Shown piece after piece: positions 53,743 through 57,568 of a stretch of DNA of 64,000 nucleotides; positions within the stretch are counted from its first letter, which is position 1; every line of letters begins with the position of its first letter. The notes below the pieces were generated by a model that saw only the letters and a list, made by a program, of their open reading frames with translations, searched no databases and was not told where the DNA came from. The DNA is from Motilibacter aurantiacus (GTDB taxonomy: Bacteria; Actinomycetota; Actinomycetes; Motilibacterales; Motilibacteraceae), in contig NZ_JAANNO010000003.1 of assembly GCF_011250645.1 (NCBI RefSeq), forward strand, positions 124,001 to 188,000, read 5' to 3'. Both the position numbers and the translations under genes were made by a program.

Positions 53743-54909
53743 TCAGCCCCCGGAGACCGCCAGCTCCTCGCCGGCCTCCAGCGCGACGCATGCGGTACCG
53801 GCGTCGTCGAGCCACCCCTCCGGCAGCACGAGCCGCTTCTGCGGGCTCGTCCGGCCCCGCGGACGACCGAGCTCTGCTTCAGGGAACGGCTGATCGGCGT
53901 CGAGCTGAGCGAGGAGGCCGTCGAGCTCGCGCAGGCTGGACACGAGGCCGAGCTGCTGGCGCAGCGTCGAGCCGACGGCGAAGCCCTTGAAGCTCCAGGC
54001 CATGAACTTGCGCAGCTCGCGGAGGCCGCGCTCCTCCCCCGCCCATGCCGTGAGCAGCTCGGCGTGGCGGCGGACCATCCGGGCCACGTCCTCGAGCCGG
54101 GGCAGGCTGGTGTGCGGCCGCCCGTCGAACGCCGCCGCGAGGTCGGCGAAGAGCCAGGGGCGCCCGAGGCATCCGCGGCCCACGACCACGCCGTCGCACC
54201 CGGTCTGCTCGACCATCCGGACCGCGTCCGAGGCCTCCCAGATGTCCCCGTTGCCCAGGACGGGGATGTCGACGGCCTCCTTGAGCGTCGCGATCGCGGG
54301 CCAGTCGGCAGTGCCCGAGTATCCCTGAATCGCAGTTCGGGCGTGCAGGGCGATGGCCGCACACCCCTCGTCCTGCGCGATGCGCCCGGCGTCGAGGTAG
54401 GTCAGCAGGTGGTCGTCGAGGCCCTTGCGGGTCTTCAGGGTCACCGGCGCCCCCTGCGCGCCCTTGACCGCGGCCCGGAGGACCTCGCGCAGCAGCCCGC
54501 GTTTCCACGGCAGCGCGGCGCCGCCGCCCTTCTTGGTGATCTTCGGGACGGGGCAGCCGAAGTTCAGGTCGACGTGGTCCACCCCGTGCTCGTCGACCAG
54601 GATGCGCACCGCCTCACCGACGTAGTACGGGTCCACGCCGTACAACTGCACGCTGCGCGGCACCTCGTCCGGCCCCGGCGTCAGCAGGTGCAGCGTCTCG
54701 CGGTCCCCCTCGACCAGCCCGCGGCTCGTGATCATCTCGCTGACGAACAGCCCCCGCCCGCCGGCCGCCTCCCGGCACAGCTGGCGGTACGGCGCGTTCG
54801 TGATACCGGCCATCGGCGCCAGCACCACCGGCAGCCCGACCTCCAGGCGCCCCAGCCGCAGCGGCGGGGCGACCGGGCGCGTCGGCGCCTCCGCGGCGTA
54901 CGTGGTCAT
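53743..54909 (-). CDS. dusB: tRNA-dihydrouridine synthase
   Basis: 388 residues: FMN TIM-barrel with LAPMAGITNAPYRQLCRE, SVQLYGVDPYYVGEAVR, VDLNFGCPVPKITKKGGGAA (catalytic Cys), ALHARTAIQGYSGTADWPAI, IPVLGNGDIWEA and VVVGRGCLGRPW. It reduces uridine in the tRNA D loop. The ATG at 54909 starts the family match after a five-residue lead. The next gene on the strand, ydcF, starts 60 bases after its stop. Confidence 0.95.
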   Translation of the reverse strand: MTTYAAEAPTRPVAPPLRLGRLEVGLPVVLAPMAGITNAPYRQLCREAAGGRGLFVSEMITSRGLVEGDRETLHLLTPGPDEVPRSVQLYGVDPYYVGEAVRILVDEHGVDHVDLNFGCPVPKITKKGGGAALPWKRGLLREVLRAAVKGAQGAPVTLKTRKGLDDHLLTYLDAGRIAQDEGCAAIALHARTAIQGYSGTADWPAIATLKEAVDIPVLGNGDIWEASDAVRMVEQTGCDGVVVGRGCLGRPWLFADLAAAFDGRPHTSLPRLEDVARMVRRHAELLTAWAGEERGLRELRKFMAWSFKGFAVGSTLRQQLGLVSSLRELDGLLAQLDADQPFPEAELGRPRGRTSPQKRLVLPEGWLDDAGTACVALEAGEELAVSGG

Positions 54910-55247
54910 GGGTCCAGTGTGCCAAGTGCCACGGCGGCGTGCCGGCGGGCGCTTCCCCGCCCGCACCCGCCCTCCCGTCCCCCTCGCCTTGACCGCGCCC
55001 GCGCCTGTTCGCGTGAATGCGGCATTGTGCCGATGGGTTCGCGTCGATGCGACATTCAGCCCACGTCGCGTGGTCTCGGTGCCGCGTTCATCGGCTCTCG
55101 TGTCAGGTCTGGAACGCTCCGCTCGCCCGCGAACTCCCGACGGCCGCGCCGCCGGTCGGTCGTCCACAGCTTCACCGCCCGAGCGTCGTCGTCCACATTC
55201 CGACGCGACGGTCCGGTCGCAAGCACGTCTCCAGCCAGGGTTGGGCC
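54910..55247. other. 338-base intergenic region with AATGCNGCATT repeats
   Basis: The dusB promoter must lie here on the minus strand. Two tandem copies of the unit TTCGCGTGAATGCGGCATTG (55009-55061, the second with four to five changes) are the left members of a repeat group also found at 56083-56161. No gene is seen before the pseudogene ATG. Confidence 0.6.
55009..55061 (+). repeat. two tandem AATGCNGCATT repeat units (left flank)
   Basis: Unit 1 at 55009-55032 and unit 2 at 55039-55061 share the pattern TTCGCGT-N2-ATGCGNCATT. The core AATGC-G-GCATT is itself palindromic. Unit 2 is nearly identical to the plus-strand unit at 56138-56161. Confidence 0.75.
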
Positions 55248-56075
55248 ATGCCCCGACGCAGTGCCCTGCTTGACCACGCGGCCCTGGACCAGTTGATCGC
55301 ACGCGACGAGTCGGTCCTGCTCACTGTCCGAGCTGAAGGAGATCGGCGTGCCGCTCTCGAGCGTGAACTACAGGTGCCGGGCCGGAGGCCCGTGGCAGCG
55401 GGGCCTGCCCGGCATCGTGCTCGCCCACAACGGGCGCCCCACCCGTCGGCAGCATCTGGTCGGACCTGGCGCCTGCCCCCACCCGTCCTCACCGGGACGC
55501 TTCCACTCGCGCCTGTAGCGCGCGCTGTCATCGACGAGGCACGTCGCTCCAGAAGCCTCGACGACGTGCGAGCTCTCGTCGCCGAGAGCGTGCAGCGGCT
55601 CCGGTGCGAGCCTCGCGACCTCGTCGTCGAGCTGGCGGCGGCACAGCGCCGCGGGTCACGGCTGGCCCGGATGGCCCTCGACGAGCTGCTCGCCGGAGTG
55701 CGTTCGGCCGCCGAGGCCGACGCACGGGCTGCGCTGCGTGCCGCCGGCGTGCGGGCCCCGGAGTGGAACGTTCCGCTCTACGACGCGGACGGTGAGTTCC
55801 TCGGCATCGTGGACGGCTGGTACGACGACGTCGCGGTCGCGCTCGAGATCGACTCGATGGAGTTCCACTTCACGGCTGAGGCCCACAAGCGCACCCAGCG
55901 CCGACAAGCGGGACTGGCCGCGGCGAGGGTGCTCGTGGTGCCCGTCGCGCCGGGTGACGTACGCCGACGCCCGGGCTCGTTCTCCCGGCTGGTGCAGGGA
56001 GCGCTGGAGCAGGCGGCCGGCCGGCCACGACCCGACATCCGGCGCTCGCCTCAGGCCGTCGCGCCGCAGGTGTGA
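55248..56075 (+). pseudogene. degenerate AbiEi-like / restriction-endonuclease-like fold protein
   Basis: The uninterrupted frame has 275 codons, but bases about 55323-55480 give sense only in the +1 frame, where they read ELKEIGVPLSSVNYRC and GIVLAHNGRPTRRQ, the N-terminal winged-helix pattern of actinobacterial AbiEi-like proteins. The original frame resumes at LTGTLPLAPVARAVIDEARR and continues through EWNVPLYDADGEFLGIVDGW and VALEIDSMEFHF, a Vsr/DUF559-like nuclease fold. The middle of the protein is missing by my estimate (roughly 70-90 codons). It is a decayed gene with one frameshift near 55323 and a deletion near 55460-55490. Confidence 0.65.
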
Positions 56076-56082
56076 CTCATGT

Positions 56083-56161
56083 CGATGCCGCATTCACGCG
56101 ACCCACGAACGGCAGAATGCCGCATCCACGCAAGAGGTTCGCGAGAATGCGGCATTCAGCC
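56083..56161. repeat. three AATGCNGCATT repeat units (right flank)
   Basis: Two inverted units (56083-56109 and 56110-56133) and one direct unit (56138-56161) match those at 55009-55061. The outermost direct unit differs from left unit 2 at about four of 24 bases. They end 22 bases before the glyS stop codon. Confidence 0.75.
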
Positions 56162-56182
56162 GAACGGGCGGGGCGGCCGGCG

Positions 56183-57568
56183 TCAGCAGCCCAGCAGCCG
56201 ACCGCCGAGCCACGACTCGACCTGCGACAGCGACACGCGCTCCTGGGTCATCGTGTCGCGGTCGCGGACCGTCACGGCGTCGTCCTCGAGGGTGTCGAAG
56301 TCCACCGTGACGCAGAACGGCGTGCCGATCTCGTCCTGGCGGCGGTAGCGGCGGCCGATGGCACCGGCATCGTCGAACTCGACGTTCCAGTGCTTGCGCA
56401 GGGTCGCGGCGAGGTCGCGCGCCTTCGGGGAGAGCGCGGCGTTGCGCGAGAGCGGCAGCACGGCGACCTTGACCGGCGAGAGGCGCGGGTCGAGGCGGAG
56501 GACCGTGCGCTTCTCCATCGCGCCCTTCGCGTTGGGCGCCTCGTCCTCGGCGTACGCGTCGAGCAGGAAGGCGAGCGTGGCACGGGTGAGGCCGGCGGCC
56601 GGCTCGATGACGTACGGCACCCAACGCTCGCCCTTGTCGGCGTCGAAGTACGACAGGTCCGTGCCCGAGTGCTCGGCGTGCGTCTTGAGGTCGAAGTCGG
56701 TGCGGTTCGCGATTCCCTCGAGCTCGGCGAACTCGGTGCCGCCGAAGCGGAACTTGTACTCGATGTCGACGGTGCGCTTCGAGTAGTGGGAGAGCTTCTC
56801 CTTGGGGTGCTCGTAGAACCGCATGTTCGACTCGGTGAGGCCGAGGCCGAGGTACCAGTTCCACCGCTGCTCGAGCCAGTACTCGTGCCACTGCTCGTCG
56901 GTGCCGGGCTCGACGAAGAACTCCATCTCCATCTGCTCGAACTCGCGCGTGCGGAAGATGAAGTTGCCCGGCGTGATCTCGTTGCGGAACGACTTGCCGG
57001 TCTGCGCGATGCCGAAGGGCGGCTTGCGGCGCGCGGACTGCATGACGTTCATGAAGTTGACGAAGATGCCCTGCGCGGTCTCGGGCCGCAGGTAGTGCAG
57101 GCCCTCCTCGTCCTCCACCGGGCCGAGGTACGTCTTGAGCAGGCCGTTGAACATGCGGGGCTCGGTGAAGGAGCCCTTCGTGCCGCAGTTGGGGCAGTTG
57201 ACGTCGGCGAGGCCCTTCTCCGGCAGCTTGCCGTGCTTGGCCTCGTACGCCTCCTCCAGTTGGTCGGACCGGAACCGCTTGTGGCAGGCCTGGCACTCGG
57301 TCAGCGGGTCGACGAACGCCTCGACGTGGCCGGAGGCCACCCAGACGTCGCGGGCGAGGATGACGGAGGAGTCGATGCCGACGATGTCCTCGCGCTGCTG
57401 GACCATCGTGCGCCACCACTGGCGGCGGACGTTCTCCTTGAGCTCGACGCCGAGCGGCCCGTAGTCCCAGGCCGACCGGGTGCCCCCGTAGATCTCGCTG
57501 CTGGGGTAGACGAAACCCCGGCGCTTGGCGAGGCTGACGATGGTGTCGATCTTGGCGTCGGTGGCCAC
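56183..57568 (-). CDS. glyS: glycyl-tRNA synthetase, alpha2 type
   Basis: 461 residues. A class II synthetase charging tRNA-Gly. The N-terminal [14 protein letters not shown] and [19 protein letters not shown], a Cys pair region CQACHKRF and CPNCGTKG that may bind zinc, the motif 2 area [20 protein letters not shown], and the anticodon-binding C-terminus ([11 protein letters not shown]) are complete. GTG start; the symmetric GGAGATATCTCC directly before it contains the Shine-Dalgarno. Confidence 0.96.

Follow-up and report, generated by a model that had tools for sequence, protein, structure and literature searches.

A decayed AbiEi-like gene between two-palindrome elements in Motilibacter aurantiacus and an apparent counterpart of REPIN/RAYT systems built on another enzyme

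The dusB-glyS locus and its repeat element

The stretch of the Motilibacter aurantiacus genome (G000) analyzed here, 64,000 nucleotides in length and referred to as the window, contains a decayed gene that is flanked on the left (about 55004-55068) and on the right (about 56082-56169) by two-palindrome elements and lies between dusB and glyS (Table 1). The preliminary description of this DNA had a decayed AbiEi-like gene between repeat clusters, and comparison with the intact gene of the congener Motilibacter deserti E257 (G001; an open copy of 318 residues) bears this out: the reading frame of the remnant shifts near 55315, and ~130 nt are missing internally near 55495. A Pfam search of the remnant produced no match. 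The sole DUF559 match in the genome is located at C1:222459-222650 (L013), and its 3.2-kb locus contains no such palindromes.

Table 1. Features of the dusB-glyS locus in window coordinates
Feature	Position	Strand	Details	Evidence
dusB	53743..54909	-	conserved neighbour	gene call
Left two-palindrome element	55004..55068	-	half-palindromes 55016-55026 and 55046-55056	model R1 match C3:179004-179068, E 3e-15
Decayed pseudogene, AbiEi-type winged helix plus putative Vsr/EDxHD-type nuclease	55248..56075	+		78% identity to the congener's open homologue
Extra half-palindrome	56082..56132	+	half-palindrome 56084-56094; overlaps right element	partial R1 match C3:180082-180132
Right two-palindrome element	56104..56169	-	half-palindromes 56116-56126 and 56146-56156	model R1 match C3:180104-180169, E 1e-15
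glyS	56183..57568	-	conserved neighbour, tail to tail here	gene call

With at most one mismatch allowed, AATGCNGCATT has four matches in the window, all of them at the AbiEi-like locus, for an expectation of 0.22. A fifth unit, GATGCGACATT at 55046-55056, is a copy of AATGCNGCATT with two mismatches. The clusters previously reported, two units on the left (55016 and 55046) and three on the right (56084, 56116 and 56146), are thus confirmed and far above chance. The single unit of ~24 bases had to be abandoned in favour of a working element with two palindromes at a distance of 30 nt (a 41-nt core plus arms). The units at 55016 and 55046 form one such element and those at 56116 and 56146 form another, in identical orientation.

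An alignment of 32 copies from the two Motilibacter species gives a 41-nt core in which two 11-nt palindromes, RATGNNNCATY, are placed 30 nt apart around a conserved CGAACCTATCG, and the better copies also carry TTGGCAG/CTGCCAA arms. The half-sites are themselves palindromic and have invariant positions, and the arms covary little beyond composition. A conserved structured RNA was considered and rejected because the Rfam search gave no convincing match at the elements and no consensus hairpin or structure emerged from RNAalifold for the Motilibacter set.

In M. aurantiacus the element occurs at about 20 places. The Motilibacter copies are intergenic and mostly lie between convergent genes, as judged from our own codon-usage gene calls, which are approximate. 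The paired pattern was found 15 times in M. aurantiacus, against one match of the reversed control, and 21 times against two in M. deserti; it is absent from G002-G004. A sequence model matched 31 times in M. aurantiacus (about 20 places, as both strands often match) and 64 times in M. deserti. Elsewhere it matched five times in G003, twice in G009 and 44 times in G031, where the palindromes differ and a centre like CCAATAGG/CCTATTGG recurs; members of the family other than the two Motilibacter species have between zero and five weaker matches. A tandem array of degenerate units with a period of ~31 nt and at least eight palindromes is found between convergent genes at C3:330370-330700 of M. 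aurantiacus (L006, L068).

The encoded protein and the age of its gene

The structure predicted from the family alignment has a mean pLDDT of 91. Its N-terminal and middle parts match the AbiEi antitoxin (PDB 6y8q) and Rv2827c (1zel), whereas the predicted C-terminal domain matches the catalytic domain of the homing endonuclease I-Bth0305I (3r3p) and the DUF559-like 3hrl. AbiE has been described (PMC3985639), I-Bth0305I is an EDxHD homing endonuclease (PMC3943268) and MTES_1575 is a Vsr-type nuclease domain (PMC3710099). Pfam AbiEi_1 or AbiEi_4 scored above the cut-off in two of the six proteins of intact relatives, and the PADLOC AbiEi models matched all four proteins tested. The nuclease assignment is putative, as the matches to the Vsr-type models MTES_1575 and DUF559 of Pfam fall below the cut-off in intact relatives and the assignment leans on structure prediction. 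The putative active site is conserved in the 86 aligned rows, with E206 present in 78, D239 in 79, E250 in 72 and H257 in 71.

The protein resembles the AbiEi antitoxins of type IV toxin-antitoxin systems in its N-terminal and middle domains, but differs from them in the additional predicted C-terminal nuclease domain and in its conserved neighbours, which are dusB and glyS. With I-Bth0305I, 3hrl and MTES_1575 it shares the predicted C-terminal fold and a conserved E...D...H pattern (PMC3943268, PMC3710099). However, it is found outside introns and phages, is joined to an AbiEi winged helix and is linked to chromosomal repeats.

Among 82 surveyed family loci, 14 have glyS, 12 have dusB and nine have both. 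The nine genomes with the dusB-gene-glyS order belong to several families, and homologues near glyS, on one stretch, are present in G001, G002, G003, G004 and G009. Relatives that lack AATGCNGCATT units have the gene at this position as well. Hence, the order is ancestral and the unit is no recent arrival between core genes, and we rejected the insertion between dusB and glyS that had been proposed in the preliminary description. The gene appears to be inherited mainly vertically, here beside glyS. Phage or plasmid carriage was likewise rejected, with one plasmid record and no phage record of close relatives. Of the small mobile unit envisaged at first, what stands is that the gene and the repeats belong together and that the elements look mobile; the recent arrival of the gene does not. 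An intact AbiEi-like gene with flanking units was indeed found in the genus, in M. deserti, whose elements can be seen by eye on either side of the gene. This sharing of the layout by the congener speaks in part against the preliminary description, which a layout fixed in all relatives would refute.

Bracketing and dispersal across the class

The family was widened by a profile, which matched 183 of the 297 genomes of the class at E <= 1e-20. Bracketing was assessed for 72 family genes by a strict local score between the upstream and the downstream flank with a threshold of >=17. A compact match at this threshold was present in 41 of the 72 genes. The corresponding rates were 0.26% for cross-locus pairs and 0.23% for intervals of the same geometry. 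Because of the kinship among the surveyed genes, the 41 do not represent as many independent events. Judging by the maxima of 37 and 26, the two controls still contain some pairs that are related or of low complexity. An earlier statistic with lenient gaps, in which 17 of 135 same-geometry intervals exceeded its 99% null, was replaced because this background was too high, and the bracketing claim rests on the strict score.

Fourteen of the 15 closest family members reach a score of >=16. The elements of the fifteenth, M. deserti, lie partly outside the test windows. When read by eye, nearly all close relatives have inverted repeats in both flanks that are specific to the genome. Unrelated genera show the same bracketing, as do the distant relatives L035, L036 and L037. 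About 40% of the surveyed family genes, including most loci of one family of large genomes (f19), are without it; L029-L031, L172, L178, L181, L183 and L184, mostly from f19, encode a similar protein and have no bracketing. Such unbracketed members are perhaps domesticated, or belong to a lineage that lost the elements. The two paralogues of G108 (L145 and L158) are each bracketed by a different element, as is the case with paralogous RAYTs.

The glyS-linked homologues of G001, G003, G004, G002, G009 and G018 have different elements, the upstream and downstream copies of which match each other. The differing element sequences show that the arrangement is kept while the letters of the element change. 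The association between gene and repeat is strong. The preliminary description had tied the repeats to AbiEi-like genes; copies do occur in the genome away from the gene, which again speaks in part against that description, but the link is real because other genomes do the same with a different palindrome.

To follow the elements beyond the bracketed genes, a single query made up of 16 genome-specific bracket elements was run against the 16 genomes from which they came. Every genome contained matches, between 4 and 76 with both strands counted, and among the matches listed each joined an element to the genome of its origin. Where matches are weaker, as in G004 and G028, the count comes from the tally alone. 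The element sequences are mostly unrelated between genomes, and near-identical copies (up to 97%) are found at many loci of one genome. The dispersed copies lack the gene and are mostly intergenic in the four genomes in which their context was examined (G016, G003, M. aurantiacus and M. deserti). In the complete genome G016 the copies are intergenic, and 15 of 25 rows are convergent and one is divergent, a count in which tandem fragments are included and the bracketed locus appears two times. The mean hairpin energy of the bracket elements is -24.8 kcal/mol, compared with -15.2 kcal/mol for shuffles. The hairpin tips of many otherwise unrelated bracket elements contain CTA/TAG (CCAATAGG, GTCGCTATAGCGAC, GGCTAGATCGCC, GCTAAGAGC), which might be a cleavage or recognition motif.

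Both Motilibacter species share six element places, namely five dispersed loci and the dusB-glyS locus, and turnover is therefore slow. At four M. deserti loci the orthologous M. aurantiacus site is without the element. Two of these loci (L080 and L086) have an ordinary terminator-like hairpin in both species, with or without the element, and hence the element comes in addition to this hairpin. G004, the congener of G003, has an empty site at one locus, so that orthologous empty sites were found in two genera. The M. aurantiacus orthologue of L081 (L250, C3:324866-324968), which lacks the AATGCNGCATT element, holds a different hairpin, GAAGGGCACCCTCTC...GAGAAGGTGCCCTCC, possibly of another repeat family. 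Contigs of M. deserti break at elements (the ends of C155 and C124, L079, L083), and the L070 orthologue is split exactly there.

A REPIN/RAYT-like arrangement with a different enzyme

The arrangement resembles REPIN/RAYT systems (REPtrons, with PF01797 REP-associated tyrosine transposases) in that two palindromic elements flank the gene, extragenic two-palindrome copies of the same element are dispersed within the genome, and the element sequence is specific to the gene copy while the gene is largely vertical (PMC2817692, PMC3116915, PMC3733652). It differs in its enzyme, an AbiEi winged helix with a putative Vsr/EDxHD-type nuclease and no HUH/Y1 domain, and in its elements, in which neither a GTAG nor a CGTC head was seen; by eye, no GTAG head is shared in the 32 aligned Motilibacter copies or in the listed bracket elements. 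The system works like REPIN/RAYT and is not a member of it. To us it looks like an undescribed counterpart, and the window probably holds a dying copy of such a system built on another enzyme.

Y1_Tnp (PF01797) matched none of 19 of these genomes and five of 14 control genomes. A RAYT was rejected as the mover for this reason, and for the same reason the AbiEi-nuclease is proposed as the spreader. We infer that this protein recognizes and spreads its own element. The winged helix would bind the palindromes, the nuclease would cut at or near the hairpin tip of the element, and copies of the element would then reach new places through repair or rejoining, in the manner of a homing endonuclease or a RAYT. 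The decayed gene and the remaining elements in the window are as expected for a population that has lost its helper. The mean identity of element copies is 0.687 in M. aurantiacus and 0.705 in M. deserti (best pair 0.829 and 0.927, respectively), a small difference on which no weight is placed since the copies were chosen by their similarity to the pattern.

According to the strongest rival, the AbiEi-like protein recognizes the palindromes as operator or structural sites and nothing moves. AbiEi antitoxins are DNA-binding autoregulators, and the bracketing copies would then serve autoregulation, the dispersed copies would be regulon or chromosome-structuring sites, and the site would change with the protein in each lineage. 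The palindromic half-sites with invariant positions typical of protein binding and the weak hairpin covariation fit this explanation. We nevertheless consider it rather unlikely: copies are also found 0-50 nt downstream of the gene, and most of the dispersed ones are placed between convergent genes, a position in which a promoter would not be expected. In addition, the residues of the putative nuclease show conservation, and near-identical copies together with empty orthologous sites require copying or insertion.

The intergenic, mostly convergent position and the hairpin potential would also suit terminators, or else generic REP/BIME-like repeats that owe their spread to gene conversion or to some unknown agent; in either case they would be close to a nuclease gene only incidentally. 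We give little credence to this explanation, as L080 and L086 have their ordinary terminator-like hairpins beside the elements and bracketing in the family is ~200 times the control rate, including an upstream copy away from any shared 3' end. A reading of each bracketed gene as a small insertion sequence of the ordinary kind, with the protein as its transposase, the repeats as its terminal inverted repeats and the dispersed copies as MITEs, is very improbable. The matching and often inverted upstream and downstream copies and the dispersed copies without the gene agree with such a structure, but nine genomes keep the gene in place between dusB and glyS, plasmids and phages have almost none of its close relatives, and either end alone already amounts to a full two-palindrome element.

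In the wider form of the proposal, which we judge evenly balanced, chromosomal AbiEi-Vsr nucleases across the class would spread or maintain their own hairpin repeats in each genome by cut-and-repair, unrelated to HUH transposition. A mostly open-access search of the literature on AbiEi/DUF559 linked to repeats returned nothing relevant, and prior art is possible. So far, the only type of dedicated enzyme to which dispersed palindromic repeats have been tied is that of the Y1/HUH RAYT transposases. In the present case the same genomic signature accompanies a putative nuclease from an unrelated superfamily; it extends over a bacterial class, and the palindrome is a new one in almost every genus. 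If the proposal is true, REPIN-like elements would have arisen a second time independently, and the dispersed palindromes of actinobacteria without RAYTs would be explained. If the nuclease does mobilize the repeats, the family would provide a naturally occurring set of winged helices paired in specificity with their palindromes, and the mechanism would be directly testable. The findings also suggest a function for many proteins whose current annotation is hypothetical protein or AbiEi antitoxin.
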